Below, in pieces: positions 6,561-40,434 of a DNA stretch of 64,000 bases (the first letter of the stretch is position 1; each line of letters starts with the position of its first letter). The DNA comes from Mucilaginibacter rigui. GTDB lineage: Bacteria > Bacteroidota > Bacteroidia > Sphingobacteriales > Sphingobacteriaceae. The notes beneath the pieces were generated by a model. The model saw nothing but the letters and a program-made list of their open reading frames with translations, searched no databases and was not told the DNA's origin. The stretch is taken from NCBI RefSeq assembly GCF_014773275.1, contig NZ_JACWMW010000002.1:744001-808000 (forward strand), written 5' to 3'. Position numbers and translations under genes: made by a program.

Positions 6561-6570
6561 GAAAGCAACA

Positions 6571-6661
6571 GTCATTGCGAGCGTAGCGTGGCAATCTTCT
6601 ACATAACAGTCGGTGATAAGTATGTCGAAGATTGCCACGTCACTTCGTTCCTCGCAATGAC
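6571..6661. repeat. REP-like intergenic palindrome (GTCATTGCGAG family)
   Basis: GTCATTGCGAGCGTAGCG-TGGCAATCTT is mirrored by AAGATTGCCACG-TCACTTCGTTCCTCGCAATGAC across a short centre. This layout is common as dispersed intergenic repeats in Bacteroidota. It fills the gap between the convergent helicase and infB genes. A degenerate relative is at 53576-53655. Confidence 0.75.
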
Positions 6662-6685
6662 GCGCGGGGATAAAAAAATCTAAAC

Positions 6686-6716
6686 AAAAAAGGACGGTTA
6701 TACAACCGTCCTTTTC
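6686..6716 (-). terminator. Terminator of the rimP-nusA-infB operon
   Basis: AAAAGGACGGTT (6688-6699) pairs with AACCGTCCTTTT (6704-6715). Read on the minus strand, the stem is followed by a T-run. It lies just past the infB stop codon. Confidence 0.85.
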
Positions 6717-6736
6717 AATATTAAGGTAATTAACGT

Positions 6737-25424: not shown

Positions 25425-25892
25425 ATGAAAAAATATATTCTAATACTAACTTTACTCATATCGGTTTTTGCATCGTGCAAAAAAGATGACAATTTTAACG
25501 CCGATACACAGGCGGCGAAAGACGAAGCTGATATACAAGCTTATTTAAAAGCCAACCCAAGCATCAATGCAACTAAAGACGCTAATGGCGTTTATTACCA
25601 GGTTATTACAGCAGGTACCGGGGCTAACCCAACGGGCGCCAACACCGTTACCGTAAATTATACCGGTAAACTATTAAACGGTAGCCAGTTTGATGCCGGT
25701 ACAGGGTTTTCGGCCAATTTAGCAGGCGGTGTTATAAAAGGGTGGACACTGGGTATACCCCATGGTAAAGTTGGTGGCCGTTTGTTATTAATTATACCAT
25801 CTGTTTTAGCTTATGGTAATACCTCGCCGGGTGCAGGTATTCCTAAAAACTCGGTATTGGTTTTTACTATTGATATTTTAGGCATTAAATAA
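25425..25892 (+). CDS. FKBP-type peptidyl-prolyl isomerase lipoprotein (first of a pair)
   Basis: The 155-residue product has a lipobox (VFASC, Cys near 18). A short helix follows ('DIQAYLKANPSINATKDANGVYYQVI'), then an FKBP domain (about 60-155) with 'VTVNYTGKLLNGSQFDAG', 'VIKGWTLGIPHGKVGGRLLLIIPSVLAYG' and 'SVLVFTIDILGIK'. These are the active-site and core residues of an active FKBP. It should assist folding of exported proteins at the outer membrane or in the periplasm. It is probably cotranscribed with the related gene at 25923. Confidence 0.93.
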   Translation: MKKYILILTLLISVFASCKKDDNFNADTQAAKDEADIQAYLKANPSINATKDANGVYYQVITAGTGANPTGANTVTVNYTGKLLNGSQFDAGTGFSANLAGGVIKGWTLGIPHGKVGGRLLLIIPSVLAYGNTSPGAGIPKNSVLVFTIDILGIK

Positions 25893-25922
25893 TTCATTTA
25901 AAATTCATACGTTTATATTATT

Positions 25923-26429
25923 ATGAAAAAATACTTATTTATACTAAGCGTGCTGGTTATCGGATTAGCCTCATGCTCAAAGGATAAAACAACACCACAA
26001 CCAGTGGTTGACCCTGCTGTACAGGCAAAAGTTGATGACGATGCAATTGTTGCATATCTTGATGCACACCCCAATATTATGGCAGTTAAGGATGCTTCAA
26101 ATAATGGGTTGTATTACCAGATAATAGACGCAGGTACGGGTGCAGCAATAACAGCAAGCTCTAAGCTTGTAGTAAGTTATGTGGGTACCGATCTTAAAGA
26201 CGTTCAGTTTGACAGGAATGACAACTTTGCTTTTTCACTTTCGCAAAACATCATCGCCGGATGGCAGTTAGGTGTGCCTAAAATTAAAAATGGAGGGAAA
26301 ATATTATTGTTCATACCGTCAGCTTTAGGCTATGGCCCATATGCTAATGGTGCGCTTCCGGCTAATTCTGTATTGGTGTTTACAATTACTATTAAATCAG
26401 TAGACGGCGTAGCTCCTGTTATTGAATAA
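25923..26429 (+). CDS. FKBP-type peptidyl-prolyl isomerase lipoprotein (second of a pair)
   Basis: The 168-residue product has a lipobox (GLASC) and the same plan as its neighbour, so the two are likely a tandem duplication. Its FKBP core is more divergent: 'VVSYVGTDLKDVQFDRND' replaces 'VNYTGKLLNGSQFDAG', while 'IAGWQLGVPKIKNGGKILLFIPSALGYGP' and 'LPANSVLVFTITI' are kept. Altered binding-pocket residues may mean weaker isomerase activity or a chaperone role (inference). Confidence 0.9.
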   Translation: MKKYLFILSVLVIGLASCSKDKTTPQPVVDPAVQAKVDDDAIVAYLDAHPNIMAVKDASNNGLYYQIIDAGTGAAITASSKLVVSYVGTDLKDVQFDRNDNFAFSLSQNIIAGWQLGVPKIKNGGKILLFIPSALGYGPYANGALPANSVLVFTITIKSVDGVAPVIE

Positions 26430-26499: not shown

Positions 26500-26951
26500 A
26501 TGAAAAAGCTTTTAACCCTTCTTTTTTGCCTTTCTGTTTTACACGGAATGGCTCAGAACACCCCATTAAGAAAAATAGTGAGTGTAAAGGCCGATGCTTT
26601 ACAAAGCAAAATAGTGGCCTGGCGCCGCGATTTTCATGAACACCCTGAACTGGGTAACCGAGAGGTGCGTACATCAGGCATTATTGCCAAACATCTGCAA
26701 TCATTAGGGATAGAGGTACAAACCGGCATTGCCACTACAGGCGTTGTGGGTATTTTAAAAGGCGGGCAGCCAGGCCCGGTTGTGGCCCTGCGTGCCGATA
26801 TGGACGCGCTGCCTGTTACCGAGCGGGTAGACCTGCCCTTCGCATCAAAAGTAAAGGCACAGTACAACGGGCAGGAGGTCGGCGTAATGCATGCCTGCGG
26901 GCATGATTCGCACATGGCTATCCTGATGGGTGTGGCAGAGGTATTATCGTC
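26500..26951 (+). pseudogene. M20 amidohydrolase, N-terminal fragment (split by the Mu-type element)
   Basis: The first 150 codons of a secreted M20D-type amidohydrolase (IAA-amino-acid hydrolase/hippuricase group). It has a signal peptide (MKKLLTLLFCLSVLHGMAQ), 'WRRDFHEHPELGNRE', 'VALRADMDALPV' and the metal-binding 'HACGHDSHMA'. The frame then enters mobile-element sequence and stops at 26979 after a few foreign residues (GGILNSI). The remaining half, with the catalytic 'QPAEEG', resumes at 39576. Rejoining at the CGTC duplication gives one uninterrupted frame of 436 residues, the usual family length. The fragment alone cannot be active because the metal site needs residues from both halves. 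Confidence 0.95.
26948..26951. repeat. Target-site duplication, left copy (CGTC)
   Basis: CGTC here is repeated at 39572-39575 immediately outside the two ends of the mobile element. With one copy removed, the host frame reads V-L-S-S-M-K-K across the site, as expected for this family. Mu normally gives 5 bp; here the fifth base differs on either side. Confidence 0.75.
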
Positions 26952-27173
26952 TATGGGGGGTATTTTAAATAGTATATAATACACAAAATAGAAAAAAGTG
27001 CGATTTGTGTGCAAAAAGGCCGTTTTTACTTATGTAGAGGCGGTTTTTTATTTTGAGTGCCTTTTTTAGTTGCGGAATGAAAAAGGTATATTATCTTGTA
27101 TTTGGTTGGATTACAATTGGATGAAGCTGCTTTAAATACCATATTTTAACGCACCTATATTTGATTTATCTTG
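26952..27173. other. Left end of the element (transposase-binding region), non-coding
   Basis: These 222 bases between the left tip and the repressor stop hold no gene. Visible words are ATGGGGGGTA (26953-26962), GTGCAAAAA (27009-27017), and the near-repeats GGCCGTTTTTA and AGGCGGTTTTTTA (about 27018-27050). Repeated G/C-plus-T-tract words are what one expects of MuA end-binding sites, but I cannot define the sites. The T-rich part may also end the repressor transcript. Confidence 0.6.
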
Positions 27174-27866
27174 TTACTTGCTGTTTAATAGTAAATCCTT
27201 AGACTGCTCCCGTATTCCGTCTAACATTATTCTTATAGCCTCTTCGCTATTTAACAAAGAGTTAAACAAAACCTTAGATGTTGGATGACCTGAAGATAGT
27301 ACGTCTCTAAGTAAAACGACCATATTTTTAATACTTTTCGCTCTTTCTTCGAAATCTTCTCGGTCAAATTTTTTGCCGGTAATTTTCTCATTAAGAAACT
27401 TAAGATTTAATAAGATATCTGACAAATGAAATTCGAGGTATAACAAATTTGATTGAATTACTTTCGTTAATCCCTGGTTTAATTCATCCAAATTTAAAGA
27501 AGCACCCTTTTTACTATTTTCTGTTTTTTTAGTATGTTTTTTACTGTTTAGGTTATCATCAGTGTTACTATTTAGGTAATCACCAATTTTGTCATTATTG
27601 ATGACATTTTCAGCGTTATTTTTAATGCCATTGATTACAAATAAAACTGTGTCATAAGTGGCAGGGTCATCATTGGTCAAAAAGTAATCAGCCGTTACAT
27701 TAAATAACCCACATACAGAGGTAATAAAGTCAAAAGTAGGGTTATTTCGCCCTGACTCGATCATTGAAATATTGTTTCTTTTAATACTTAGCTTGCTGGC
27801 CAACTCCTCTTGAGTGAGCCCTGCAAGCAGTCGTAATTTTTTTAGTTGTGTTCCCGGACTGTACAT
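27174..27866 (-). CDS. Phage repressor with XRE-type helix-turn-helix
   Basis: The 230-residue protein opens with an HTH_XRE domain: 'GTQLKKLRLLAGLTQEELASKLSIKRNNISMIESGRNNPTFDFITSVCGLFNV' (about 5-57). The rest is helical and Asn/Lys-rich with no peptidase motif, so it is not a LexA/CI-type self-cleaving repressor. It is divergent from the Ner-like gene, the same arrangement as c and ner in Mu, and probably controls the early operon from the 87-bp gap between them. Confidence 0.85.
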   Translation of the reverse strand: MYSPGTQLKKLRLLAGLTQEELASKLSIKRNNISMIESGRNNPTFDFITSVCGLFNVTADYFLTNDDPATYDTVLFVINGIKNNAENVINNDKIGDYLNSNTDDNLNSKKHTKKTENSKKGASLNLDELNQGLTKVIQSNLLYLEFHLSDILLNLKFLNEKITGKKFDREDFEERAKSIKNMVVLLRDVLSSGHPTSKVLFNSLLNSEEAIRIMLDGIREQSKDLLLNSK

Positions 27867-27953
27867 TGTTATTTTAAATTACAATTAAAGTTGCAAATGT
27901 CATTTATAATATCAAGATTTGCAATACAAAAGTTAATCAAAAATAACAAAAGC
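27867..27953. promoter_or_regulatory. Divergent early/repressor control region with inverted operator-like sites
   Basis: In this 87-bp gap TTGCAAAT (27891-27898) and its exact inverse ATTTGCAA (27917-27924) are spaced 18 bp apart. The sequence is very A/T-rich. They are candidate operators for the repressor or the Ner-like protein. No -7 TAnnTTTG element was found with confidence. Confidence 0.5.
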
Positions 27954-28151
27954 ATGGAAAGAAACGAATTAAAAGCAAAAATACCGCATGGTTACGGTAA
28001 AATAATTGCAGAACGGGCAGGAACAACTAAGCAAGCCGTTTCGCAATTTCTAAATGGGAAAAGCGATAACGTTAACGTTGAAATGGCAACGCTGGAAGTG
28101 CTTGCAGAAATAAATGAAAAGAGGAAAGCTTTACTAAATCGACTTAAATAA
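27954..28151 (+). CDS. Small Ner/Cro-like HTH regulator
   Basis: The likely start is the ATG at 27954 (65 residues). The frame is open back to 27846, but that would overlap the divergent control region and gives an atypical N-terminus. 'GKIIAERAGTTKQAVSQFLNGKS' (about 14-36) is a helix-turn-helix. Its position between the repressor and transposase is that of ner in Mu, which turns down the early promoter. Confidence 0.75.
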   Translation: MERNELKAKIPHGYGKIIAERAGTTKQAVSQFLNGKSDNVNVEMATLEVLAEINEKRKALLNRLK

Positions 28152-28174
28152 TATAATCCATAATCATTTTAATT

Positions 28175-30268
28175 ATGAGAATTGAAGGTTATAAGGATAT
28201 CGTATTATCAATAGAAGAATTGGTAGAACTAAGCGAAGGTAATTTATCGGCGAAAAATATTAAGTTTTATTGTCATCGCGCCGCCGCCAAGCAAAACAGT
28301 ACTGTATGGTTAAGCCAGCCCGACCCAACAGACGGGCGCAAAATACTTATTAGCTATAAGAGTATCCCAAAAACTACTATAGAGAAGTACGGCCTACCGA
28401 GTATAGATACATTAAAGGAGTTGGTAAGGCAAGAACGTGCATTGGAGCAAGAAGGCCAAAAACAATTGACCTTAGAGTTTGCGCAAGGCCGTTTACAGGA
28501 TTGCATTAACCATGCTTTAAACGAGGATTTTGTTAAGTATTGTAAGGTATATGATAAGCTGTTTCCTAAATATAAAGACAGGTCAAAAGTATTGCTATTT
28601 GCTAAAACCCACTCCGTTTTGCAGTGCTGCATTGATCTTAAACCACGTTACACCATTGCCGAACTGCATAGCGCATATTTAAGAGCGCCGGGCATTAAAA
28701 TAACGCTTAAAAATCAACTCAAATTCGGCCAGCGGCTTAAGGAATGGCAAACAAGCCCTATACAATTAATCCATAAGGCTAAAGGCAAGCCCAAAACCGA
28801 GATACGCAAAATGAGCGATTGGCATATAGCCGTAATACGCGACTTGTATGCTCACCCAAACAAGCTAACTAACAGGATTATACACAACATGTTAACCGAC
28901 GAGTGTTTACAGCAAGGTAAAACGGTTGTATCACTCGGTAGCGTGGAGAAATACCTGGCAAGGCCGGAAGTTAAAAACGCTCTATCAATCAGCCGCGATA
29001 AAGATTATTACCGCCGTGTAGTGCAACCCTACACCCGCCGCAAAGCGCCGCTTTATGCAGGTGATTTGTATTACGCCGATGGCTCACCAATACAAATGAC
29101 CTGCCTTAACGAAGCGCAAAACAAGGAAATACGGCTAAATCTGTTTGTCGTTATGGACGTAAACAGCAAAAAAATAGTTGGTTTTGACCTGGCCGAAAGT
29201 GAAGATAAATTTAACTGGATGGCAGCCTTTAAAATGGCCTTTGGCGTACAAATGCTATTGCCGTTTGAAGTAATGTATGATAATGCCAGCGCGACTAAAA
29301 CGGCAGAATTTAAGGCTTTAAAAGAGGCTTTAATGTTAAAGGGCTGCACACTTAACCCTACTACTAAAGGCGAACCAAAGCAAAAGGCCGATGTAGAACG
29401 ATGGTTTAACACGTTCCAAAGTGAGTATCAACGCTGTGTTGACGGCTATATCGGTGAGGGCATACGGTCAAAGCGCCAAAACGGCCATACCGATGTTGAA
29501 CACTTAGCATACCTGCGCAAAACAAAAGGAGTGCCGACAAAAAGCGAAACCATTGAAATTATATCGCAACTGATAGCAGCCTATAATGCTAATGGCCGCG
29601 AAAAGAAAGTATCACCTAACCAAAAATTTGCGGAAAGTGAGCGGCCAAACGTGGTGCCGATTGATGCAGCCGATTTAGCATTATTATTTAACCATAGCCG
29701 CAAAATAAAGGTTAGCAATAGCGAAGTAAAATTGACCATACGGCATAATGAATATTACTATGAAGTATATGAGCATACCGCCGCTTTAAAAATTGATGGT
29801 ACTTCTGTAATGGTTTACTACGATGAAACCGACCTTTCAGGAGTACACATTTGCGACCTTGACGGTGGTTACCTATGCTATTGCAGGCAAAAAGTGCAAT
29901 TCCATAAAGCTAAAGCCAATCAAACCGAGGCTGATGTGCATCAAATCATCAAGCAAACAAAGCACAATGAGGCTAAAAAGAATGTTGCCAAAGGCATAAA
30001 TAACGAATTGGTAGCGCCGTTAGCTGGCTTAGAACTGCAAACCTTAAATCCGCTGAATGCCGCTTTAAAGGATAGCCGCAACGATGCAGAAACGCAAGCT
30101 TATCTAAACTGGGTACAACAGGCAACAGGTATAAAATTTACTGACAAAATAGGCAATGTTGATTTTAACGACCGACCAAACCCAAACAAAAAAACCAAAA
30201 CCATACAGGAAAAGCACGCTAAAAAGAACATAGTAGCGGCAACATTAACAGTAATTGAGAGGCCATAA
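28175..30268 (+). CDS. MuA-type DDE transposase
   Basis: The 697-residue protein has an N-terminal Mu-type DNA-binding region (about 1-200), an rve/RNase-H-like catalytic core and a C-terminal Mu-transposase beta domain. The catalytic triad is D302 ('YYADGSP'), D369 ('MYDNASAT') and E408 ('ADVERWF'). The 67-residue D-D spacing equals that recalled for MuA (D269/D336). 'RIIHNMLTDECLQQGKTVVSLGSVEKYL' just before the core fits the domain that precedes it in this family. The C-terminus (about 600-697) should contact MuB and the host ClpX. The ORF is intact, so the element may still be transposition-competent. Confidence 0.95.
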   Translation: MRIEGYKDIVLSIEELVELSEGNLSAKNIKFYCHRAAAKQNSTVWLSQPDPTDGRKILISYKSIPKTTIEKYGLPSIDTLKELVRQERALEQEGQKQLTLEFAQGRLQDCINHALNEDFVKYCKVYDKLFPKYKDRSKVLLFAKTHSVLQCCIDLKPRYTIAELHSAYLRAPGIKITLKNQLKFGQRLKEWQTSPIQLIHKAKGKPKTEIRKMSDWHIAVIRDLYAHPNKLTNRIIHNMLTDECLQQGKTVVSLGSVEKYLARPEVKNALSISRDKDYYRRVVQPYTRRKAPLYAGDLYYADGSPIQMTCLNEAQNKEIRLNLFVVMDVNSKKIVGFDLAESEDKFNWMAAFKMAFGVQMLLPFEVMYDNASATKTAEFKALKEALMLKGCTLNPTTKGEPKQKADVERWFNTFQSEYQRCVDGYIGEGIRSKRQNGHTDVEHLAYLRKTKGVPTKSETIEIISQLIAAYNANGREKKVSPNQKFAESERPNVVPIDAADLALLFNHSRKIKVSNSEVKLTIRHNEYYYEVYEHTAALKIDGTSVMVYYDETDLSGVHICDLDGGYLCYCRQKVQFHKAKANQTEADVHQIIKQTKHNEAKKNVAKGINNELVAPLAGLELQTLNPLNAALKDSRNDAETQAYLNWVQQATGIKFTDKIGNVDFNDRPNPNKKTKTIQEKHAKKNIVAATLTVIERP

Positions 30269-30352
30269 GAAAGCCGTTAAGCCTGCCAGCTTAACGGCCA
30301 TTTAAAAGGCTTTTAACAACCATTTAAAACTAATTTAAAATCTATTTCAAAG

Positions 30353-31183
30353 ATGCAAAAAGAAACCCTGATTGAACAAGCCCGCAAGTTAATAAATGAC
30401 TTTACGGGTATCAAAAAAGTTAGCAAGGCTGATCTTGCTAAAAAGCTAAACATTAGCGATGCTGTGCTAACTTTTATTAAGCAAGGACAGGCCGAAAAAC
30501 TTTCGGTAGAAATGCTGAATAGCATTATCGCCCAATTACAGCCCGGTAGTGGCTTTAATTTGGTTGGAACCTCTAACTATAACAGCATACAAAACATTTG
30601 CCTCAAAACGCAGAACAGCCGCCAACTGAACGTAGTAATAGGTTATACCGGCGCAGGTAAAAGCGTTGCCCTAAATGACTATTACCGTAGTAAAGAAAGG
30701 GTGTACTATATGGTTTGTAAGAACTCTATGAACCGCCGCCAATTCCTGTGCGCTATCCTCGCTGAAATGGGTGTAAATTTTATGGGTAACGTTTACGATA
30801 TGGTTAACAAAATCGTTGACTTGCTAAATGAACAGCCTAATACGTTGCTGATAATTGATGAAGCTGGCAAGGTTAGCACCAATGTAATATTAGACCTCCA
30901 CGACATACGCAACGCAACCATGTACAGCGCTGGTATTTTATTGGCCGGATGCGAGTATTTTCAAACCAATATAGAAAAAGCGGTTACCAAAGAGAAAATT
31001 GGTTACCCCGAGTTTCATAGCCGGGTCACTAATTGGAATGTACTTAACAGACCTACCAAAGCCGAGGTAACAGCCATTTGCCAGGCAAACGGATTGACAG
31101 ATGAAGCCACTATAAAAGAGTTGCACCGCATCCCTAATTACAGGCTTTTATATAACGCAATCACTAACGAAACCGATAATTAA
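30353..31183 (+). CDS. MuB-type AAA+ ATPase, target selection protein
   Basis: The 276-residue protein has an N-terminal HTH ('VSKADLAKKLNISDAVLTFIKQGQ', about 23-46) and an AAA+ ATPase domain. Walker A is GYTGAGKS (97-104) and Walker B is LLIIDE, with D169. MuB binds target DNA with ATP, activates the transposase and gives target immunity. It is 84 bp downstream of the transposase, in the same order as in Mu. It is intact. Confidence 0.93.
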   Translation: MQKETLIEQARKLINDFTGIKKVSKADLAKKLNISDAVLTFIKQGQAEKLSVEMLNSIIAQLQPGSGFNLVGTSNYNSIQNICLKTQNSRQLNVVIGYTGAGKSVALNDYYRSKERVYYMVCKNSMNRRQFLCAILAEMGVNFMGNVYDMVNKIVDLLNEQPNTLLIIDEAGKVSTNVILDLHDIRNATMYSAGILLAGCEYFQTNIEKAVTKEKIGYPEFHSRVTNWNVLNRPTKAEVTAICQANGLTDEATIKELHRIPNYRLLYNAITNETDN

Positions 31184-31190
31184 TTTAACC

Positions 31191-31661
31191 ATGAGCGAAG
31201 CAAATAACATTATAAAAACAAAAGCCTATTACGCCGATCTAAGGCATCAGGCGGCAGTGCTATACATTAAGGATGGATTATCAGCCAAAGAGATTAGAAG
31301 TCGCTTAGGCGTAGCAGAACAATCAATAGCAAGGTGGCGCGATGCGGGTAGATGGAATGAACTAAGGCCGGATATGCTTAAGGCTAAGGAATATAAGTCA
31401 GCGCATCTATACATAGTTGAGGGGCTTACACCCGGCCAAATAGCCATGAAATTAAGCATTAGCGAAGTGACCGTAAACTATTGGATAACGATTAACCGAT
31501 GGGATATTGTTAAACAAGTGCCTGAAATGCTGGATGCCGCCGCCGAGAATGTTAATCGCTTTTGCGAACATTTTAAAAAACACTTTCCGCACCTGGGCGC
31601 TGAAATTGAAGTGTCCCGCCAAGGATATATAAAGCGAAAGATCAAACAAACAAAACCTTAA
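31191..31661 (+). CDS. Protein with two tandem helix-turn-helix repeats
   Basis: In this 156-residue product two similar units, 'YIKDGLSAKEIRSRLGVAEQSIARWRDAGRW' (about 25-55) and 'YIVEGLTPGQIAMKLSISEVTVNYWITINRW' (about 70-100), resemble the gpP-like HTH found at the start of phage terminase subunits. A basic C-terminal tail follows. It may be a small-terminase-like DNA binder or an early regulator. No ATPase motif is present. It starts 7 bp after the MuB-type gene, so it belongs to the early operon. Confidence 0.7.
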   Translation: MSEANNIIKTKAYYADLRHQAAVLYIKDGLSAKEIRSRLGVAEQSIARWRDAGRWNELRPDMLKAKEYKSAHLYIVEGLTPGQIAMKLSISEVTVNYWITINRWDIVKQVPEMLDAAAENVNRFCEHFKKHFPHLGAEIEVSRQGYIKRKIKQTKP

Positions 31662-31665
31662 ACCA

Positions 31666-32088
31666 ATGAACCAACAAATAAACGATTTTACGAATATACT
31701 TACCTATGCACATGAAGCATGCAGTAAGTACGAACTTAACGAGATTGATAGCGAAGTTTTACTATTCGCTATTGCCGACGATATGAATTGCATGGCATAC
31801 GAGGTTATGACAAATGCCGGGTACAATGTCAATAAGCTTAAAAAAGTATTACGGGAACGCTTTAAAATCAACAAGCCTGAAACCTATATAGCTGGCAGTC
31901 CTTTTAGCGTGTCTGTAGAGGGTTTAATTGCCCTACATGCCTTACACTATGGCGGCAGGCCGTTAACGACTATTACCATGTTAAAAACGATCATACGCAA
32001 TGATAACACGGCGGCAGCGCGGTTGCTTCGCGCCGAATGTATATCACTCAATTACAATAACGAATTAACTTATAAACCATTAATCTAA
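31666..32088 (+). CDS. Stand-alone Clp N-domain-like protein
   Basis: The 140-residue protein appears to contain two Clp_N-type helical repeats. The first is 'EIDSEVLLFAIADDMNCMAYEVMTNAGYNVNKLKKVLRE' (about 25-63). The second is 'SVEGLIALHALHYGGRPLTTITMLKTIIRNDNTAAARLLRAECIS' (about 81-125). In ClpA/ClpC the same pattern (hEHLLLALL...a..LL...gvd...L...l) forms the N-terminal substrate/adaptor-binding domain. No ATPase module is attached. This is by-eye similarity only. Because Mu relies on host Clp proteins for repressor turnover and transpososome remodelling, a modulator of Clp is a reasonable guess. Confidence 0.55.
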   Translation: MNQQINDFTNILTYAHEACSKYELNEIDSEVLLFAIADDMNCMAYEVMTNAGYNVNKLKKVLRERFKINKPETYIAGSPFSVSVEGLIALHALHYGGRPLTTITMLKTIIRNDNTAAARLLRAECISLNYNNELTYKPLI

Positions 32089-32095
32089 TCACGCT

Positions 32096-32560
32096 ATGCA
32101 GTTTGCCACAAAACAACAAATAACAAAAATACACGTGCTTTTAGCTAACACCGGGTTTATGGATAGTAAAGCTGATATTATCTATGGATTGACAGATGGC
32201 CGCACGGAAAGCACCAAAGAATTAACGATTGATGAAGCGCGCCGCCTTATCACCAGCTTGGCTAATTGCGACCCAAAGGAGCGACAAAAGCGACTTGTGT
32301 TTTCGTTGGCTTACCAAGCCGGTATCATATACGGCGAAACCTCCGACGATAAAAAAATAAATGCCGCAAAATTAAACCTGTTTTTAAAAGAACGGGGCGC
32401 AATTAAAAAGGAGCTTAACCAAATGACATTAGACGAGCTTGTTAAAACACACCGGCAGTTTGAGGCTATTGTCAGGAATAACACAAAGGCCGGCGACAAA
32501 AAGGCGGCTAACAAATTAGTAAATAACCTATTAGGCGAACTTGATATTAAAGTATTATAA
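32096..32560 (+). CDS. GemA/Gp16-like protein (DUF1018)
   Basis: The 154-residue protein begins 'KQQITKIHVLLANTGFMDSKADIIYGLTDGRTESTKELTIDEARRLITSL', the signature of the Mu Gp16/GemA family. Mu GemA lies in the semi-essential early region and alters host gene expression and DNA supercoiling. The C-terminal helices contain a Lys-rich stretch ('NNTKAGDKKAANKLVNNLLGEL'). It is in the early operon. Confidence 0.85.
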   Translation: MQFATKQQITKIHVLLANTGFMDSKADIIYGLTDGRTESTKELTIDEARRLITSLANCDPKERQKRLVFSLAYQAGIIYGETSDDKKINAAKLNLFLKERGAIKKELNQMTLDELVKTHRQFEAIVRNNTKAGDKKAANKLVNNLLGELDIKVL

Positions 32561-32562
32561 TT

Positions 32563-32781
32563 ATGAATGCAAATACAAACAGTGTAGCCGAAATGGTTGA
32601 GCACTTTAAACAATATATCACAGGCGGTATAGACCCGGTGATAGCGCGAAAAGCGTTAACGCAATTATATGTAAACTACACGCGCTCACTTGTGCGCCAA
32701 CCCGATCAAATCACTAATGCAACAGAAGATCAGCTGTATGTTTTAGCTGAATTTATAGAGATTTTGGACGGTGGATATTAA
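32563..32781 (+). CDS. Small unknown protein of the early operon
   Basis: This is a 72-residue, probably all-helical protein with no recognised domain. It starts 2 bp after the GemA stop, so it is probably translated with it. It is the last gene before the early terminator. Confidence 0.6.
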   Translation: MNANTNSVAEMVEHFKQYITGGIDPVIARKALTQLYVNYTRSLVRQPDQITNATEDQLYVLAEFIEILDGGY

Positions 32782-32813
32782 CTAAGCCGTGCGCTAACCA
32801 ACTTAAAACCTAT

Positions 32814-32849
32814 AAAAAAGGCCTTTACAATAGTGTAAAGGCCTTTTTT
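32814..32849 (+). terminator. Strong terminator of the early operon
   Basis: A perfect 16-bp stem (AAAAAAGGCCTTTACA with TGTAAAGGCCTTTTTT) with an ATAG loop and T-run. It ends the early transcript 33 bp after the last early stop codon. Confidence 0.92.
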
Positions 32850-32863
32850 ATAGAATTAACACC

Positions 32864-33106
32864 CCTGTTTTTTGCACTTACCCCCCTACGTTCGCGGTGT
32901 TTATTTGTCGTTACCTAACGAATTATAGGTATTAAATAGTGCAGTTACCCCGGCACTTTTAGCAACACTTTCAGCAACAACAACCCGAGTTTATCCAAAT
33001 ACCCCTTTTGTGCCAATTTAAAAGGAGGTCATTAGTATAGTCTTTTTAAAGCCACAAACGTGCAAAAAAAGTGCTTGAAGCATGGGGGGTAAGTGCAAAA
33101 AACAGG
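32864..33106. repeat. 243-bp non-coding block bounded by a perfect 23-bp inverted repeat
   Basis: Arms 32864-32886 and 33084-33106 are exact inverse complements (outer CCTG...CAGG, inner C6/G6 runs) around 197 bp without a gene. The right arm and its flank contain ATGGGGGGTA (33082-33091) and GTGCAAAAAA (33093-33102), words also present at the left tip of the element (26953-26962; 27009-27017). Another GTGCAAAAAA is at 33060-33069. The block lies almost at the centre of the element (33261). It could be a nested MITE, a leftover end, a structured RNA, or a protein-binding site like Mu's central gyrase site. Confidence 0.75.
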
Positions 33107-33268
33107 CCTCAAAACGCCACTTTAGGCACTCGGAAAATCAATCAATTTTAAGTTATAATAAACTGATAAACAGTTAATTAGCTCTAATTTTCATAACTAT
33201 TTTTTGTTGTAAAAATGGCGCGAAGTAGCTTTACAAGCTACTTGATATTCACAAGCAAATAATATGAT
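33107..33268 (+). promoter_or_regulatory. Upstream region of the late-like genes with a palindrome
   Basis: AAGTAGCT (33223-33230) and AGCTACTT (33236-33243) form an 8-bp inverted repeat with a 5-nt centre, 25 bases before the protease start. It could be an operator or a leader hairpin. The upstream 110 bases are A/T-rich. No consensus promoter fits exactly. Confidence 0.45.
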
Positions 33269-34270
33269 ATGATTAAAAGCACAAAACGATTTATTTTAAC
33301 TACCGATGCCGTCAATTCGTACAGCTTTCGTGTTTTAACGGCGGGCATAGACTTAACCCAATTCAAAAGCAACCCGCTTATGTTGTGGATGCACCGCCGT
33401 GCAAATGGCAGCAGCCGGGATGAGGTTTTGCCATTGGGCTATTGGGATGATCTGCAAGTAACCGAAAACAGCATTTCCGGTGTACCCGTGTTTGATGATT
33501 CCGACCTTTTCGCAATGTCTATTTACAACAAGGTTGAGAACGGCACGATTAAAATGGCAAGTGCCGGATTGAAGCCGGTGGAGTGGAATGATAGCCAGCA
33601 ATACAAACTGCCCGGTCAAACAGCGGCCACACTAATGCGCTCAATTATGGAGGAGGTAAGTTTGTGCGATATTGGCGCAAACTCGGATGCAATAGCGGTA
33701 ACGCTGTATAGCAACAATGGCGGCGTAATTCAGCTATCAACACTGGGAGCGCTTAATGATCCTTACATTTTAAAGCTTGCCGCTAAAAGCTGGGAAGAGC
33801 TTGATAAGGCGGGCGAAATGAAAGCCCTTAAAGCCGCCGCACCCGATATGTACGCTAAAAAGTTCCATGAACGATTTGGAAAATATCCTGATGGATACAC
33901 TGCCCCTGCTAATTTATCAATGGATAGCAACGGCCATACACCCCGTGCTTTATTTCTTGCTGCTAAAAGTTGGGATGAACTTCACAGATCAACAGACCTT
34001 GCTGAACTTAAACGGCTTTCAGTTGACTTGTATAACCACAAATTTTATGAGCATTTTGGTGAGATGCCGAAAAGTGTAACCCGGTCAACAAAAACGGTGC
34101 TTTCACACTCCGTAAGCCAAACCCTCACCTTATCACAAATCTTAGACCTTGATTGTAAAAGCTGGGATGAACTTGACCGCTCAAACGAATTGCTACAATT
34201 TAAACAGGCAGCCCCGCAATTATTTGCATCTAAATTTTTTAATCGCTTCGGTAAAATGCCAAGCAACTAA
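33269..34270 (+). CDS. Prohead-protease-like protein with three C-terminal repeats
   Basis: Residues 1-150 of 333 resemble HK97/Mu-type prohead serine proteases. 'FKSNPLMLWMH' supplies a candidate catalytic His (H42), 'LPLGYWDDLQV' follows, and 'GTIKMASAGLKPVEW' supplies a candidate Ser (S98). The C-terminal half has three copies of an about 39-residue unit (169-207, 229-267, 292-331), with core K-S-W-(D/E)-E-L, then K..(A/S)..(L/M)(Y/F)..KF..(R/H)FG.(M/Y)P. Such repeats are unusual for a prohead protease and may be a scaffold or binding module. The expected neighbouring major capsid gene is absent. Confidence 0.65.
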   Translation: MIKSTKRFILTTDAVNSYSFRVLTAGIDLTQFKSNPLMLWMHRRANGSSRDEVLPLGYWDDLQVTENSISGVPVFDDSDLFAMSIYNKVENGTIKMASAGLKPVEWNDSQQYKLPGQTAATLMRSIMEEVSLCDIGANSDAIAVTLYSNNGGVIQLSTLGALNDPYILKLAAKSWEELDKAGEMKALKAAAPDMYAKKFHERFGKYPDGYTAPANLSMDSNGHTPRALFLAAKSWDELHRSTDLAELKRLSVDLYNHKFYEHFGEMPKSVTRSTKTVLSHSVSQTLTLSQILDLDCKSWDELDRSNELLQFKQAAPQLFASKFFNRFGKMPSN

Positions 34271-34300
34271 CCTTAAATATTAACTTTTAAAACAATCAAA

Positions 34301-34975
34301 ATGCCACCAGTATTAATTTACACAGACACACAAAAAGCCACAGAAGAAAAAGCGTATTTAACCACCGTTATACCTTTTCTGCAAAGCGCCTACAATGCTA
34401 TTTTAGGCTTACAGTTAACCGCAACATTAGCGGAACTTGAAAGCCTGTTTAACAGTATTTCACGTAACCCACAAGGCACAGATCATTTAGAGCAGCTTGC
34501 CAAATCTTTTGTAAAAAACAAGTTAGTTATCAAAGCCGGTAGCCAAGATTATAACGGCGTGCCGATAAGCGCACAAAAGATTGCCGATATGATAGACGTG
34601 CCTAACGTATCTACATTGGTTAGCGCTTTAGATGGTTACTTCCACGCCCGTAGAAGTGCAGGCTTTGGTATTCGTTTTACCTTGCTGGATTTGGTTGATG
34701 ATGTTATCAGCAAGAAAGGAACGGCTGATGCCTCAATAACCACCGAGTACACATACTATTCAAAAAATGATTATGGTGCAGCCCTGGCAACACAACTATT
34801 TACCATGTGCGATGCTATGAACCAATTAGAGGCTCTTGATACAAGCGCATTAAGCCTTAAAGTAGGCGGACTAAAACAGGATGGTATTTTTAAAGGTGTT
34901 GAGTTTATAAACAACACCTGGAGACCAAGTCTGTATTTTATCAGGGAGCGCGAAGCGCAAAAACCAAACGCATAA
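34301..34975 (+). CDS. Unknown phage protein between the protease and tape-measure-like genes
   Basis: The 224-residue, soluble, mixed alpha/beta protein has no motif I recognise. 'VLIYTDTQKATEEKAYL' begins the protein, and 'GIFKGVEFINNTWRPSLYFIREREAQ' ends it. It is too short and not similar enough to call a major capsid protein. It ends 3 bp before the next start, so it is cotranscribed with it. Confidence 0.6.
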   Translation: MPPVLIYTDTQKATEEKAYLTTVIPFLQSAYNAILGLQLTATLAELESLFNSISRNPQGTDHLEQLAKSFVKNKLVIKAGSQDYNGVPISAQKIADMIDVPNVSTLVSALDGYFHARRSAGFGIRFTLLDLVDDVISKKGTADASITTEYTYYSKNDYGAALATQLFTMCDAMNQLEALDTSALSLKVGGLKQDGIFKGVEFINNTWRPSLYFIREREAQKPNA

Positions 34976-34978
34976 CCT

Positions 34979-35464
34979 ATGAGAGATTTAAAAACCGAAA
35001 CGGTTAATGCCGATTTAGAGCAGCGCGATACTGAAACAATATTAGATAAGGGGTTGCCAATAAAATTGCGCACCCCCTTGCTTTTAAGATTGTTCATGAA
35101 AAATCATTTTGTATTAGTATTGACTAATCCGGCAGGTGCTGCTTACACACAAATTCTAACCTATTATTTAAGTATGGAGCTAACGAGTAAGGATGGTTAC
35201 CATACCGATTTTAACAGCCTGCTTACTGTGCAGGCCAAGCACCGTAAAAAAGTATATCGAGCATTTGCATGCGGGTTGCTTAATAGTCGTTTGTTGCGTT
35301 GGTTGCTTACCAAACCGCTTGCGTGGATGCTGGATAATTCATTGCCATATAAAGCCGCTTGCCGTGTTTTTGAATTATTGGTACTACATGGCGGTATTGA
35401 TGATTTTATACAGGTTATAGGTTTGGGCGCAAGAATGAACTTGGTATCAAAAAAGGAGGGCTAA
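34979..35464 (+). CDS. Unknown phage protein directly upstream of the tape-measure-like gene
   Basis: The 161-residue, helical, Leu/Arg-rich protein is without a named domain. In tailed phages the slot just before the tape measure gene usually holds tail assembly chaperones, so that role is possible by position only. It ends 3 bp before the next start. Confidence 0.55.
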   Translation: MRDLKTETVNADLEQRDTETILDKGLPIKLRTPLLLRLFMKNHFVLVLTNPAGAAYTQILTYYLSMELTSKDGYHTDFNSLLTVQAKHRKKVYRAFACGLLNSRLLRWLLTKPLAWMLDNSLPYKAACRVFELLVLHGGIDDFIQVIGLGARMNLVSKKEG

Positions 35465-35467
35465 AAG

Positions 35468-38400
35468 ATGAGCGATTTAGATTTAGATATAGAATTTAGA
35501 ATTAATGATGCGGAAACGGAACGGCAATTAAATTCAACCCGTGAACGCATCCGCTCTGTTGGTACCGAAGCCCGGACACAAGGGCAGGTTGTAAGGCAAA
35601 GCTTTAACGGTCTGCAAAACTCCATAAATCAAATTGGCCGCGAGTTGCCAGCATTTACCTATTCAGCCCAAACGGGCTTTATGGCCATAGCTAACAATAT
35701 ACCAATACTTACAGATGAAATTGGGCGGTTAAGGGCAGCAAACGCCCAGTTAACCGCATCAGGGCAAACGGCGGTGCCGGTATGGCGGCAAGTAGTTAGC
35801 GGGCTGTTCTCATGGGGTACTGCAATGTCAGTTGGTATAACCTTAATGACCGTTTACGGCAAAGAACTTGGTAATTTAATTACCTCGCTTTTTAAGGGTA
35901 AGGATGCTATAAATAACGCCCTGTTAGCACTAAAAAACTTTAATGAAGTGATGGCTAAGGCTAACGAGGCCGCAGCCCCTCAAATATCCAAACTTAAGAT
36001 TTTGTATAGTGTAACACAGGATGTTACACAGGCGATGGAAGAACGCGTAAAGGCAGCACAGGAGTTAAAAAAAGAGTTCCCCAATGAGTTTGCAAACGCT
36101 TCATCATTACAAATCATCAACGGTAAACTGGCCAGTAGCTATGATGATGTAACAAAATCTATTATGAGCCAGGCGAGAGCCAAGGCAGGACTTGATAAAA
36201 TAACCGAACTGGAAAAAACTAAGCTTAATGCAGAAATACAAAAGCAGAAAATAAGGAGCGCGGAAAATTACGCTACACAAAAGGCTATTAAAAGCGATGT
36301 CGATTTTACGATGAACAAAAACCCCGGCATGACGCTGGAAGAGGCTAAAGCTTATGTATTGTCGCATCAGGCTGTGATGCAACGAAATAAAGTCGGCGCA
36401 GATGTGGTGTTAAAATCAGGTATGGCCAGCGGGGTTGACCTTATCCATGGTAGCGCGGTTGAAGCTGCTAAAGCACAAGATGAGATTATAAATTCCACTA
36501 AAATACAGCAGGAAAATATACAAAAACTTGTCGGCGGCGGTGCTAAAATTGCCAGTGTGATAGAGGGCAATAATAAGCTTATCCAAGACCCGCTAAAAAA
36601 CTTCGATGCAATAGTTAAAAATGCGTCCCAAAAAGCAGATTTAGAAATACTTGAAAAGTCGTTACAGGCCAAGCTTGATGCTTTAGCACCGAACGATAAA
36701 CAAAGGGCATTGTTGAGCGATAAGATTGAACAGGTTAAAAAAATCATTAAAGATGCTTATACTATTGATGATGGCAAAAGCGCCAATGATGCCCTAAAAA
36801 ACATTACCGATAGTAGTGAGAGTGTTTACAAACAATTACAGGCGCTGGATGCCGAATATTCCCGCAAAGGCTTTACTAAGGATGAAGAGGAGAAACAAGC
36901 CCTAAAAGACAAGTTTACTGCATTTCGCAAGATCATTGCCGACGAGAACGCCAAGATAGCCGAGTACAATAAAACCCATAAAAAGCAAATCGGTACTATT
37001 GATGTTGGCGCGGTGCAGCCCATAGAGGATAAAGCAACCGCCGACCTTACCTACAGGCAGGACACCGCCAAGCTTAAAACATCGCTCGACGAGCAAAAAA
37101 AGCTGTACAGGGAATATGAGGACTATAAAACCAGCTTTGGTGAAACAAAGGCAAACGAGCGTTACAGTTGGGATTTAGATACCTCAAAAACCTACCTGCA
37201 AAAGCTTACCGACGAGTATAATAAACTAACAGATCAGCAAAGCGCAGCACCATTAACCGGCGTTCAAAAAGAGCGGCTAAAAATGTTGGGCGATGGTATC
37301 AAAGCAGAGCAATCTTTAACAGAGGCAAACTTTACAAAGCTGCTTGCCGATAATCAGTCTTTCGAGGATAAGCGTACCGCCATACAGGAGAACGCTATGG
37401 CCAAAATTCAGGAACTGCGCAGCAAGGGCAATACCGTTGAGGCCGATAATCTGCGCAAAAAGACAGAGGCCGAATTAACCGAGTTTGATAAAAAACGGGT
37501 TGAGCAACTGGATAGCTATAAAGAGTTATACGATAACCTCGACCACATGAGTACATCGGCCTTGCGTAAAAGCCTTGCCGGTTTGCAAAGCCAGGTTAGC
37601 AAGCTTGCGTTAACGCCAAAAGCAAAAGAGTTTTTCGATAAACTTTTTGGTGATATGCAGTTTCGTATTGATAGCAAGTCGGGAAGCGATTTTAAAAACA
37701 TTGCTTCATCGCTTAATGATGCTGCGCAATATGCCGGTAATTTAAGCGAGGGGCTTGGCTCGGCACTTCGTACCGCCGCCGACCTTGTAGGGCAGGTAGG
37801 CAACATTAAACAAGGCATGGCCGACTTTAAGAAAGCCTCAACGGATAAAGATATGTTCGGGCAGATCAGCGCAGGCCTTGGCATGGTAGGCGCGGCAATA
37901 GGCATTATTTCTACAATTGGCGGCTTATTCAGCAATGCAAAGGCAAAGGCCGAACAGCAAAAATACATTACCGATTTGCAGTTAAAGGCAACAGAGGCGG
38001 TAAACAAAGCCCTTGAACGCCAATTGGCATTAACAAAAGAAACATACGGCCCCGAAAGGCTTGTAGCTTATAAAAAGTCATTAGAAGATATTGCAAAGGC
38101 GCAGGCTGATGCATCTGCAAAATTGGCCGGTAGAACTACATTAAGCGGCATCAAAGTGCTTGATGAAAAATATATCAATCAGTTAAATAATGGCGAAAAA
38201 CCATTAAATCAACTGCTTGAAAGCATGTATAAAGGGGCGGTTGCTCAAAATGCAGTAATTAGCTTGACTGGTAAAAGTATTGAAGACCTCACAAGGCTAA
38301 TGGACGAGGGTAAACTGGACGAAAGGACAGCCGCCATTGTAAAAAGCATGATTGACCTTAAGCAACAGGCTAAAGACACCGCCAACGCGCTAACGGAAGA

Positions 38401-39025
38401 AATTACCGGCGTTAACTTCGATAGCTTAAACGAAGAGATACGCGGGATTTTTGACAGCGGCGAGGCTGATTCGCAAAAGTTTGCCGATGCGATAGAAAAA
38501 AACATTCGCCGTGCTTTCTCCAATGCCTTTAAGCGTAACGAGATCGAAAAGGCTATGCAGCCTTTCTATGACCAGCTTTATAAGGCTGGCGAGGATGGTG
38601 TGTTCAGTCAAAATGAGATTGATACGTTAAGGGCGCAAAAAGATGCTATTGCCAAGTTATTGGCCGACAAAGCCGCCGCATACGAGAAAATTATCGGTGC
38701 TGATGATACCGTAACCAATACCGATAATAACAGCCTGCAAGGTGCTTATAAAACCGCCTCGCAGGAAAGTATAGACCTGCTATCTGCTAATACAGGCGGG
38801 TTGCGCCTGGCTGCCGTAGAGGGCAATAATTTAACCAGGGCAGGAAATAAAACTTTGAGCGATGGGCTTGATGAAATGAAAAAGCATACGCTTTCATTAA
38901 TGGAAATATCCGTCAATACAAAAGTATCGGCTGATTATGCCCCCTATTTAAAACACCTTGAGTCTATGGATAAAAAGATGGACGATTATAAAAACTATAG
39001 CGCTGGAATGGGGAGGGTTGTGTAA
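35468..39025 (+). CDS. Tape-measure-like protein
   Basis: The 1185-residue protein is rich in Lys, Ala, Glu and Gln and is predicted to be long coiled coil (about 160-740 and 1000-1185). Hydrophobic segments lie near 110-145 ('LFSWGTAMSVGITLMTVYGKELGNLI') and about 800-825 ('GQISAGLGMVGAAIGIISTIGGLF'). The N-terminus 'DLDIEFRINDAETERQLNSTRERIRSVG' is typical of tape-measure openings. Such proteins set tail length and help eject DNA. No sheath, tube or baseplate genes accompany it, so its job in this element is unclear. Confidence 0.75.
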   Translation: MSDLDLDIEFRINDAETERQLNSTRERIRSVGTEARTQGQVVRQSFNGLQNSINQIGRELPAFTYSAQTGFMAIANNIPILTDEIGRLRAANAQLTASGQTAVPVWRQVVSGLFSWGTAMSVGITLMTVYGKELGNLITSLFKGKDAINNALLALKNFNEVMAKANEAAAPQISKLKILYSVTQDVTQAMEERVKAAQELKKEFPNEFANASSLQIINGKLASSYDDVTKSIMSQARAKAGLDKITELEKTKLNAEIQKQKIRSAENYATQKAIKSDVDFTMNKNPGMTLEEAKAYVLSHQAVMQRNKVGADVVLKSGMASGVDLIHGSAVEAAKAQDEIINSTKIQQENIQKLVGGGAKIASVIEGNNKLIQDPLKNFDAIVKNASQKADLEILEKSLQAKLDALAPNDKQRALLSDKIEQVKKIIKDAYTIDDGKSANDALKNITDSSESVYKQLQALDAEYSRKGFTKDEEEKQALKDKFTAFRKIIADENAKIAEYNKTHKKQIGTIDVGAVQPIEDKATADLTYRQDTAKLKTSLDEQKKLYREYEDYKTSFGETKANERYSWDLDTSKTYLQKLTDEYNKLTDQQSAAPLTGVQKERLKMLGDGIKAEQSLTEANFTKLLADNQSFEDKRTAIQENAMAKIQELRSKGNTVEADNLRKKTEAELTEFDKKRVEQLDSYKELYDNLDHMSTSALRKSLAGLQSQVSKLALTPKAKEFFDKLFGDMQFRIDSKSGSDFKNIASSLNDAAQYAGNLSEGLGSALRTAADLVGQVGNIKQGMADFKKASTDKDMFGQISAGLGMVGAAIGIISTIGGLFSNAKAKAEQQKYITDLQLKATEAVNKALERQLALTKETYGPERLVAYKKSLEDIAKAQADASAKLAGRTTLSGIKVLDEKYINQLNNGEKPLNQLLESMYKGAVAQNAVISLTGKSIEDLTRLMDEGKLDERTAAIVKSMIDLKQQAKDTANALTEEITGVNFDSLNEEIRGIFDSGEADSQKFADAIEKNIRRAFSNAFKRNEIEKAMQPFYDQLYKAGEDGVFSQNEIDTLRAQKDAIAKLLADKAAAYEKIIGADDTVTNTDNNSLQGAYKTASQESIDLLSANTGGLRLAAVEGNNLTRAGNKTLSDGLDEMKKHTLSLMEISVNTKVSADYAPYLKHLESMDKKMDDYKNYSAGMGRVV

Positions 39026-39037
39026 GAGATGAAAAAA

Positions 39038-39066
39038 TCAGAGCCTTGCTATTTGCAGGGCTCTGA
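39038..39066. terminator. Hairpin after the tape-measure-like gene
   Basis: TCAGAGCC (39038-39045) pairs with GGCTCTGA (39059-39066). The A-run lies upstream on the plus strand, so the T-run would follow the stem only on the minus strand. It may block antisense reading into the element rather than end the sense transcript. Confidence 0.45.
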
Positions 39067-39132
39067 AATATAAATAAATAACCTAATTAATTTACGATCA
39101 GCAAATTGTTAAACTGATCTCTGTTGTATTAA

Positions 39133-39450
39133 ATGATAAGAGGTAGCCAAACCCTAACCGTAATATTTACTGATGAAGAGCCGAAAACCCGAAAGGTTAA
39201 CGGTGCTTTATTAGACGATAGGGATATGGCCATGGCGTACCGTTTTTATTATCACTTCAATATCATTCGCCGTAGGTTTGATGACGTACCTGATATTTTG
39301 GAAAAGGAGTTTTATATAAGTGCTACAACTGTTGTTAAAAAGCTAACCGAAAACAGCGATATGTTAAAGGATATTAAGGATAATTCACCAGGTAGAGAAC
39401 AGCTTAAACAAATGTATCCGCACTTCAATTGGAGCGAAAAAATGCAATAG
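39133..39450 (+). CDS. Small conserved-looking protein near the right end
   Basis: The 105-residue protein has a central 'YRFYYHFNIIRRRFDDVPDILEKEFYISATTVVKKL' segment (about 35-70). It resembles small HTH-like proteins I recall from Bacteroidota mobile elements, but I cannot name a family. It lies alone between a hairpin and the right tip, where Mu carries its modification and accessory genes. Confidence 0.6.
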   Translation: MIRGSQTLTVIFTDEEPKTRKVNGALLDDRDMAMAYRFYYHFNIIRRRFDDVPDILEKEFYISATTVVKKLTENSDMLKDIKDNSPGREQLKQMYPHFNWSEKMQ

Positions 39451-39571
39451 ATGCGGAGTTAAAAAGGTATGCTAAAATCATTTAAATTACTGTTGCTAAT
39501 TGTTAAAATGTTTTTTGTTTCGCTATACGTTTTTATTTGCTTTGATTTACTTTTTAATTTTCCGCTTCATA
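39451..39571. other. Right end of the element
   Basis: Read inward (minus strand) the tip is TATGAAGCGGAAAATTA, with GCGAAACAAAAAACA about 30 bases further in. G-C-rich words followed by A-runs are candidate transposase sites. On the plus strand a small frame starting at 39469 runs through the tip into the host M20 remnant. Confidence 0.6.
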
Positions 39572-39575
39572 CGTC
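39572..39575. repeat. Target-site duplication, right copy (CGTC)
   Basis: This matches CGTC at 26948-26951. The flanking bases (A before, A after) differ from the left copy (T before, T after), limiting the exact duplication to 4 bp. Confidence 0.75.
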
Positions 39576-40434
39576 AATGAAAAAGGACCTGCACGGTACT
39601 GTAAAGTTTATTTTTCAACCCGCTGAAGAGGGGGCACCCGTGGGAGAGAAAGGTGGCGCTGAAGAAATGGTAAAACAAGGTGTACTTGAAAACCCAAAGG
39701 TTGATGTGATCTTTGGCTTACACATCAATTCGCAAACGGAGGTTGGCAAAATAGTTTACCGCCCGGGCGGTATCATGGCAGGCGTAAAAGACCTGCAAAT
39801 AACGGTAAAAGGCCGTTCGGCACACGGCGCTTACCCATGGAGCAGTATAGACCCTATCGTGGTTTCGGCACAGATCATCAGTAGCTTGCAAAGCATCGTT
39901 AGCCGTAATATAAACGTAACCGAAAACCCTGCGGTGGTAACTATCGGTTTAATAAATGGCGGCTCGCGCTTTAATATTATCCCCGAGAGTGTTAAAATGC
40001 AAGGCACGGTAAGGTACTTTACAGATGCTGACGAGAAAATGATCACCGGGAACGTGAAACGAATTGCCACCAAAACAGCCGAAGCCTATGGCGCCACAGC
40101 CGAGGTGCTAATACCCTACAGCAATAAATACCCTGTTACCTTTAACGATGTAGCCCTTACCGCCAAAATGCTGCCCACGTTAGAGGGTACCGCCGGTAAG
40201 AAAAATGTATTACTGCGCCCGCCGGTAACCGGTGCCGAAGATTTTAGCTTTTACCAGGAAAAAGTACCCGGCATATTCTTCTTTTTGGGCGGGATGCCAA
40301 AAGACGGCAACAGCATAACAGCCCCATCGCACCACACCCCTGATTTCTTTATTGACGAAAGCGGGTTTACCCTCGGCGTAAAAGCCCTGTGTAATTTAAC
40401 GCTTAATTATATGAACGGAGCTAAGAACAAATAA
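39576..40434 (+). pseudogene. M20 amidohydrolase, C-terminal fragment
   Basis: This continues the gene broken at 26951. It opens 'MKKDLHGTVKFIFQPAEEG', including the catalytic Glu pair. 'FGLHINS' supplies a metal His, the dimerisation domain is 'GRSAHGAYPWSSIDPIVVSAQI', and 'TGAEDFSFYQEKVPGIFFFLG' and 'SHHTPDFF' follow. An ATG at 39469 inside the element gives an in-frame 321-residue hybrid whose first 36 residues are element-encoded and hydrophobic. That product lacks HACGHD and cannot form the full metal site. Confidence 0.95.

Follow-up and report, generated by a model that had tools for sequence, protein, structure and literature searches.

How should a 12,620 bp insertion with transposition genes like those of phage Mu, located inside a peptidase gene of Mucilaginibacter rigui (Bacteroidota, Sphingobacteriaceae; assembly GCF_014773275.1), be classified? 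The window analyzed here is a stretch of 64,000 nucleotides (contig NZ_JACWMW010000002.1, positions 744,001 to 808,000 of the forward strand), and the insertion, referred to as W, interrupts a gene for an M20 amidohydrolase. W falls short of a complete Mu phage. It has genes for MuA, MuB and a repressor, but a search for large terminase, portal and capsid genes found none, and W is likely a phage satellite that moves by Mu-type transposition. Positions below are those of the window; G-numbers denote genomes of the same bacterial family, and L-numbers denote loci or contigs.

Insertion site and boundaries

The element and the two parts of the interrupted gene are arranged as follows.

26500 to 26951, forward strand: 5′ half of the interrupted M20 amidohydrolase gene (Pfam M20, 9.1e-12)
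26948 to 26951, no strand: left CGTC copy of the 4-bp target duplication (sequence read directly)
26952 to 39571, forward strand: whole element W, 12,620 bp, TATGGGGGG...CATA (sequence read directly; ends agree with relatives)
39572 to 39575, no strand: right CGTC copy of the 4-bp target duplication (sequence read directly)
39576 to 40434, forward strand: 3′ part of the interrupted M20 gene (Pfam M20, 2.9e-24)

Positions 26952 to 39571 are a Mu-type element inside the M20 gene. Read directly, the left junction is ...GTATTATCGTC / TATGGGGGG and the right junction ...CCGCTTCATA / CGTCAATGAAAAAGG, with CGTC flanking both sides; the boundaries proposed in the original prediction, made from the sequence alone, are correct to the single base. 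The 4.7 Mb genome contains one full copy. When W and one CGTC are deleted, the result is the predicted frame of 436 codons plus a stop, which reads V-L-S-S-M-K-K across the joint, and the two halves match consecutive parts of the Pfam Peptidase_M20 profile (positions 1-50 for the 5′ half, 51-204 for the 3′ half). The joined protein is matched in 59 of 61 genomes of the genus, the window's own included, although some of these matches are paralogues at about 40% identity. Alignment of the 20 best orthologous loci shows an unbroken gene in all 20, with no insertion or deletion at the joint, and the two closest read TCGTCCATG there. The orthologous empty site is explained by duplication of CGTC, and in these relatives, as had been proposed, M20 is a single gene rather than two naturally separate ones. 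A recent insertion is plausible, because both M20 halves remain open frames. Just 5′ of the M20 gene, at 25425-26429, are two tandem, similar-looking frames, the second of which matches an FKBP-type isomerase.

The claim of a 4-bp duplication also holds among relatives of W. In two of them, with tips fixed by homology, the duplications are GTTG (L133) and TAAA (G132), and the elements start TATAGGGGG. Four bp are likewise found in G102 (GATT), G317 (GGAA), G300b (CAAG) and G239a (AATT), where the 4-mer was used together with tip similarity to locate the right tip; those of W, L133 and G132 were set without it. Scripted duplication scans gave many chance 4-mers, and only ends backed by tip similarity were kept. 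An 8-bp duplication, CGTC[T/A]ATG with one mismatch, was considered since the orthologues vary at that codon, but it is ruled out by the relatives, which start TATAGGGGG and duplicate 4 bp. Mu itself duplicates 5 bp, which W does not. The 4 bp had been read as a departure from Mu; it is instead ordinary in this branch, because the transposable phages of P. gingivalis have conserved termini and 4 bp bounding repeats, according to an excerpt of PMC10367356. Another supposed likeness to Mu, the TGAAGCGG in the right tip, is exact in W alone among seven right tips and is no family feature. Repeats containing AAAAAGGTAT are located near both ends of W (27078-27093 and 39458-39474) and also in G132 and L133; these are candidate transposase sites, inconsistent in orientation.

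Gene content and absence of head genes

W has its own mobility and regulation genes and no head of its own, which is the pattern of a satellite. Its genes are as follows.

27174 to 27866, reverse strand: HTH_3 repressor (Pfam 1.9e-13)
27954 to 28151, forward strand: Ner/Cro-like small helix-turn-helix (HTH) protein (92% identical to sister contig L132 over 65 amino acids; start set from that contig)
28175 to 30268, forward strand: MuA transposase (phrog_310, 1.5e-57; Mu-transpos_C)
30353 to 31183, forward strand: MuB-like AAA ATPase (phrog_296, 1.4e-39; AAA_22)
31191 to 31661, forward strand: HTH protein (TerS-like), a relative of the DNA-binding portion of small terminases from full phages (2.4e-07 to 0.0011)
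31666 to 32088, forward strand: Clp_N-domain protein (Pfam 1.2e-05)
32096 to 32560, forward strand: GemA-like protein (49-75% identical to eight other satellites)
32563 to 32781, forward strand: o72, small satellite protein (BLAST: 6 satellites, 0 full phages at E 1e-4)
33269 to 34270, forward strand: prohead protease without the scaffold-like segment of the phages (1.3e-34 to a Porphyromonas phage prohead protease)
34301 to 34975, forward strand: o224, hallmark satellite protein (profile finds 9 satellites, six of which built it)
34979 to 35464, forward strand: o161, tail-module protein (2.6e-26 to the TCUEAP3 protein directly before the tape measure)
35468 to 39025, forward strand: tape-measure protein (85% amino acid identity over 1185 amino acids to the G234 phage)
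39133 to 39450, forward strand: o105, related to the protein ending the early region of full phages (65% over 99 amino acids to the G234 phage; 1.1e-14 to a Porphyromonas phage frame)

The transposase and MuB-like frames are intact, as originally proposed, and match the PHROG transposase and DNA transposition protein at the values listed. Relatives of the protease, o161, tape-measure, o105, GemA-like and HTH proteins occur in some or all of four public Bacteroidota Mu-like phages, but o224, o72 and the Clp_N protein have none there. A structure model of o224 has a predicted local distance difference test (pLDDT) value of 86.6, and fold searches with it gave no match better than E 0.5 against the PDB and none better than 0.7 against a viral library. 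Between the early genes and the protease, at 32810-32853, a near-perfect palindrome with T-runs ending both strands is probably a two-way terminator.

Head genes were sought with profiles built from full phages and run without speed filters. No large terminase, portal, capsid or adaptor match was obtained at E 0.05 in 14 satellites, W included, of which seven have both ends and seven are partial or trimmed contigs. As a positive control, the profiles recovered 19-20 of the 29 loci mapped below, partly by construction. Neck-like genes occur in three of the 14 (L132, L148 and L151) and major-tail-like genes in two (G102 and L148), and G317 has a marginal tail-completion match (0.023). The original identification of a Mu-type element stands, but it overlooked both the absence of head genes and the membership of W in a conserved satellite-like family.

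A family of small elements

It might be that W is simply what is left of a normal Mu-like prophage of 33-36 kb after loss of the head genes, persisting as a defective transposon. Several W genes do descend from full Mu-like phages, and tail genes without a head resemble leftovers. We consider this deletion origin very unlikely, however, as the reduced design, with o224 and a common gene order, recurs across genera, and no examined full phage has o224. Protease matches are present in 25 of 399 genomes of the bacterial family, the window's own included. The 29 loci mapped are part of all probe matches in these genomes, and most belong to full phages carrying genes for the large terminase, portal and capsid (G122 is partly in view and G326 is damaged). 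The small elements among them are W, G132, G239a, G102, G317 and G347 (at a contig end), along with G300b, which lacks the protease and o224. Where both ends are seen, sizes are 12,620 bp (W), 12,571 bp (G239a), 11,829 bp (G132), 11,475 bp (G102), 11,201 bp (G317), 10,845 bp (L133) and 7,484 bp (G300b). The order repressor, ner, MuA, MuB, TerS-like HTH, gemA, protease, o224, o105 is common to the 10.8-12.6 kb units, which come from several genera, and the same small design is present in six genomes of one bacterial family and in many metagenomic contigs.

The GemA-like and o224 profiles are better probes for this family than MuA. The o224 profile matches 7 of the 399 family genomes, including G154 weakly, and detects nine satellites at 1e-70 or better (six of which built it), while no full phage falls below E 0.44. 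In IMG/VR, it finds four loci and the GemA-like profile finds 26. Twenty of those 26 read as satellite-type, several being partial or near-identical; of the others, L162 has a capsid gene beside the protease and L164-L168 are of phage type. Across Bacteroidota, the GemA-like profile matches 7 of 395 genomes, all weakly except the window's own. As a probe, MuA yields two remote matches other than the window's own among 60 genomes, and viral contigs give none; of 301 genomes of the family it matches 10, where only G132 and G300 reach at least 40% identity apart from the window's own. A scan of named genomes gave five loci, all among those already found. The protease also matches three phage records from human faeces, two of which have terminase genes and were set aside as phage type; one further record matches GemA. 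The G239 genome contains a satellite and a full phage together.

In a quick tree, 15 of 18 satellite proteases form one clade (Shimodaira-Hasegawa-like approximate likelihood ratio test, 99) nested among full phages. With start codons assigned mechanically, these 15 are 252-333 amino acids long, against 348-384 in ten related phages. Their N-terminal protease portion and a W-x-ELD motif at the C-terminus are retained, and a charged, coiled-coil-like stretch is missing. The missing segment may be a scaffold, as its charge and coiled-coil likeness lead one to expect.

Selection and exchange of the tape measure

Comparison of W with the IMG/VR contig L132, whose genes stand in the same order, bears further on a deletion origin. 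By simple Nei-Gojobori counting, the ratio of nonsynonymous to synonymous substitution rates (dN/dS) is 0.03-0.19 in 8 of 13 comparisons, with finite dS of 0.9-2.4; these values are rough. In the other five (TerS-like, Clp_N, both tape-measure pieces and o105), dS is saturated. The genes of W are under purifying selection, and since the design common to W and L132 predates their split, they were maintained while the element was already a satellite, which speaks against a remnant. L132 additionally has a 103-amino acid frame and a neck-like gene.

The tape measure has a different history. Eleven other compared genes are 62-92% identical between W and L132, but the tape measure is only about 41% identical by BLAST, while the W protein is matched at 85% over 1185 amino acids in the full phage of G234, a genome of the same genus. 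The corresponding DNA match (82.5% over 35462-39025) is essentially the open frame 35468-39025. Other DNA matches between W and G234 are pieces of o161, o105 and the protease at 69-71%, and a 41-bp left-end stretch at 88%. G234 is the sole near match to the tape measure in 149 genomes of the genus, with the next best at 37%. To judge by these alignments, the tape measure was exchanged as a gene-exact unit between satellite and full-length phage lineages, in either direction, which again speaks against a deletion remnant. Family mapping, dN/dS, the o224 profile and the protease tree all describe a conserved lineage rather than a one-off deletion.

A left-end motif common to satellites and phages

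Mu has a pac site near its left end. W has a candidate for such a site close to its own left tip.

26990 to 27015, forward strand: left-end motif AGAAAAAAGTGCGATTTGTGTGCAAA, candidate packaging (pac) site at +39 (score 25.2, matrix from 7 full phages)

The next same-strand site in W scores 10.0, and the 51 kb of host DNA on its flanks peak at 10.5. In all six core satellites with a known left end, the best site of the matrix is at +36 to +39, with scores of 21.3-33.7, and no other same-strand site in any of them exceeds 10.8. Eight more sequences were scanned: L154, L160 and L161 score at least 18, and G154, L156, L157, L163 and G300b score below that. Phages outside the matrix include G399 (32.1), G423 (26.7) and G325 (31.3, a near-copy of a training phage), while eight phages outside the helper-like protease lineage score 12.6 or less, some of them with no recognised left tip. 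The matrix is partly circular, as its seven phage sites were picked using the left end of W, and only those of G234, G186 and G239b stand clearly above shuffles there. For an independent test, left windows were anchored solely on the terminal G-run, without any W-based choice of site. In these windows, the six core satellites reach best scores of 42-58 against nine helper-like phages, with 0 of 200 shuffles as high, but clearly lower scores of 20-31 against five phages of other lineages. The left window of W beats 200 of 200 shuffles against phage left windows.

Two satellites separate the possible causes of this resemblance. The MuA proteins of G317 and G102 belong to the same lineage as those of phages G260, G295 and G320, in which the motif is absent, but the motif and protease of these two satellites are those of the other lineage. 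As judged from such comparisons, the motif tracks the lineage of the protease rather than that of the transposase. That it travels with the protease suggests a packaging role, and it may be the packaging signal. An excerpt of PMC12135933 describes packaging of the hankyphage as headful, beginning at the left end and taking in 29-31 bp of host DNA there.

The motif does adjoin a transposition end, and it could instead be a transposase or host-factor site that says nothing about packaging. This alternative, which is compatible with W being a satellite, seems rather unlikely: in addition to following the protease lineage, the motif occurs just once at such a score in each of the six core satellites, and among full phages nothing matches the MuA of W at more than about 25% identity. 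The motif is also relevant to the idea that W is a plain MuA/MuB transposon, itself unpackaged, whose phage genes serve as a weapon against incoming Mu-like phages. Assembly could be upset by the protease, the tape measure and the TerS-like protein, and the family does include loci (G277 and G113) where MuA/MuB stand without recognised phage genes. However, a fixed-distance left-end motif in common with phages is needless for such a role, and we regard the idea as highly improbable.

Upstream of the protease, at 33080-33100, GCATGGGGGGTAAGTGCAAAA resembles the left tip, and a similar motif precedes the protease in G132. A G-run followed by TAAGTGCAAA is also present in G239a. The GCATGGGGGGTAAGTGCAAAA-type site could be a promoter or operator.

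A possible satellite cycle

If W is a Mu-type transposing satellite, its packaging would be performed by a helper phage. When a helper of the G234-like lineage grows in the cell, the satellite would replicate via its own MuA/MuB transposition, and the helper terminase would begin packaging at the common left-end motif. The protease without its scaffold segment, and possibly o224 too, might alter or compete in head assembly, perhaps giving smaller heads, and the satellite tape measure would join the helper tail. The resulting particles would inject the satellite, which would then transpose into a new site such as the M20 gene. More generally, we lean slightly towards a model in which self-transposing Bacteroidota satellites pirate Mu-like phages by means of a copied packaging site, a scaffold-stripped protease that redirects heads, and whole tape-measure swaps that track helper tails, with the transposition module replaced independently.

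Several observations weigh against this picture. The window's own genome has no second protease match, and no resident helper was found in it. G144, a phage of the helper-like lineage, lacks the motif (matrix 7.5; anchored 20), as does the small element G300b (anchored 20, a score reached by 16 of 200 shuffles), and a factor besides terminase could bind the motif. The TerS-like protein matches the corresponding gene in all four public phages, which is annotated as a small terminase in three and as a DNA-binding regulator in one; its six best BLAST matches cover just 57-66 amino acids, and the protein, matching in an HTH region only, may be a regulator instead. The proteases of the satellite-like L157, L159 and L160 fall outside the 15-member clade, and the MuA and MuB trees require two and four switches, respectively, between satellite and full-phage states. 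Finally, the tape measure of L132 does not read as one frame, owing to either a frame shift or an error in sequencing.

Relation to known phages and satellites

Complete Bacteroidota Mu-like phages (Porphyromonas phages, hankyphage p00, Peternella_1, TCUEAP3 and G234-type prophages) resemble W in MuA, MuB and the left repressor. They also resemble it in the prohead protease, in relatives of o105 or the tape measure, and in a G-rich left tip, which starts three of four public records (a Porphyromonas phage, p00 and Peternella_1, but not TCUEAP3). Unlike W, they are 33-43 kb long and have large terminase, portal, capsid and tail genes, and no o224 was found in them; related prophages have the longer protease with the scaffold-like segment.

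To our knowledge, known phage satellites integrate with site-specific recombinases. Phage-inducible chromosomal islands (PICIs), which include the Staphylococcus aureus pathogenicity islands (SaPIs) and Gram-negative PICIs, are like W small, headless and phage-derived. They integrate by a tyrosine recombinase at an att site, whereas W moves by MuA/MuB transposition into varied sites with 4-bp duplications; among its annotated open reading frames, no integrase family was found besides the transposase core. Capsid-forming PICIs (cf-PICIs) encode their own capsid and packaging genes; W differs in the absence of head genes described above. P4-like satellites are parasites of about 11 kb whose phage is about three times larger, a size relation that W shares, although no P4-type integrase or primase family is found among its annotated frames. 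Laboratory mini-Mu elements, which have Mu ends and transposition genes and are packaged by helper Mu, are man-made deletions, whereas W belongs to a natural family with its own hallmark genes. Coexistence of a PICI with a Mu-like prophage is described in an excerpt of PMC6893505 for PmCI172, which was observed in small capsids. AH14b of Pseudomonas was considered as a Mu-type satellite and rejected, as it carries a tyrosine recombinase according to the portion of PMC4936722 consulted.

A literature search by title and abstract start, with most subscription journals outside its coverage, found no Mu-type transposing phage satellite. Phage satellites and Mu-like phages are both known kinds of element; as far as that search reached, the new part is their combination in one conserved, self-transposing family. 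If the interpretation is true, Mu-type replication and spread would be a separate way of being a satellite, and Mu-like phages would have dedicated natural parasites. Tape-measure swapping and the scaffold-stripped protease would then become testable as tools of piracy.

Other small elements in the family

Some loci depart from the common design. L143 (G154:C19, 3584-12311) looks like a second satellite-like design, with Ner-like, MuA and MuB genes, a weak o224 relative, a hub-like tail gene and a short tape measure; within the 14 kb seen, neither gemA nor a protease or head gene was recognised. Late genes are reordered in the divergent satellite-type contigs L157, L159, L160, L161 and L163, the proteases of which lie outside the 15-member clade or are not recognised at full length. 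L054 (G277, 2575-5990) and L053 (G113, 5202-7279) have MuA/MuB relatives with neighbours unrecognised by phage queries, and are perhaps plain Mu-type transposons. In the G317 satellite, at L055 15287-17828, a laminin-G/head-fibre-like protein and a SASA esterase are present with no recognised tape measure, and may perhaps be receptor-binding cargo.

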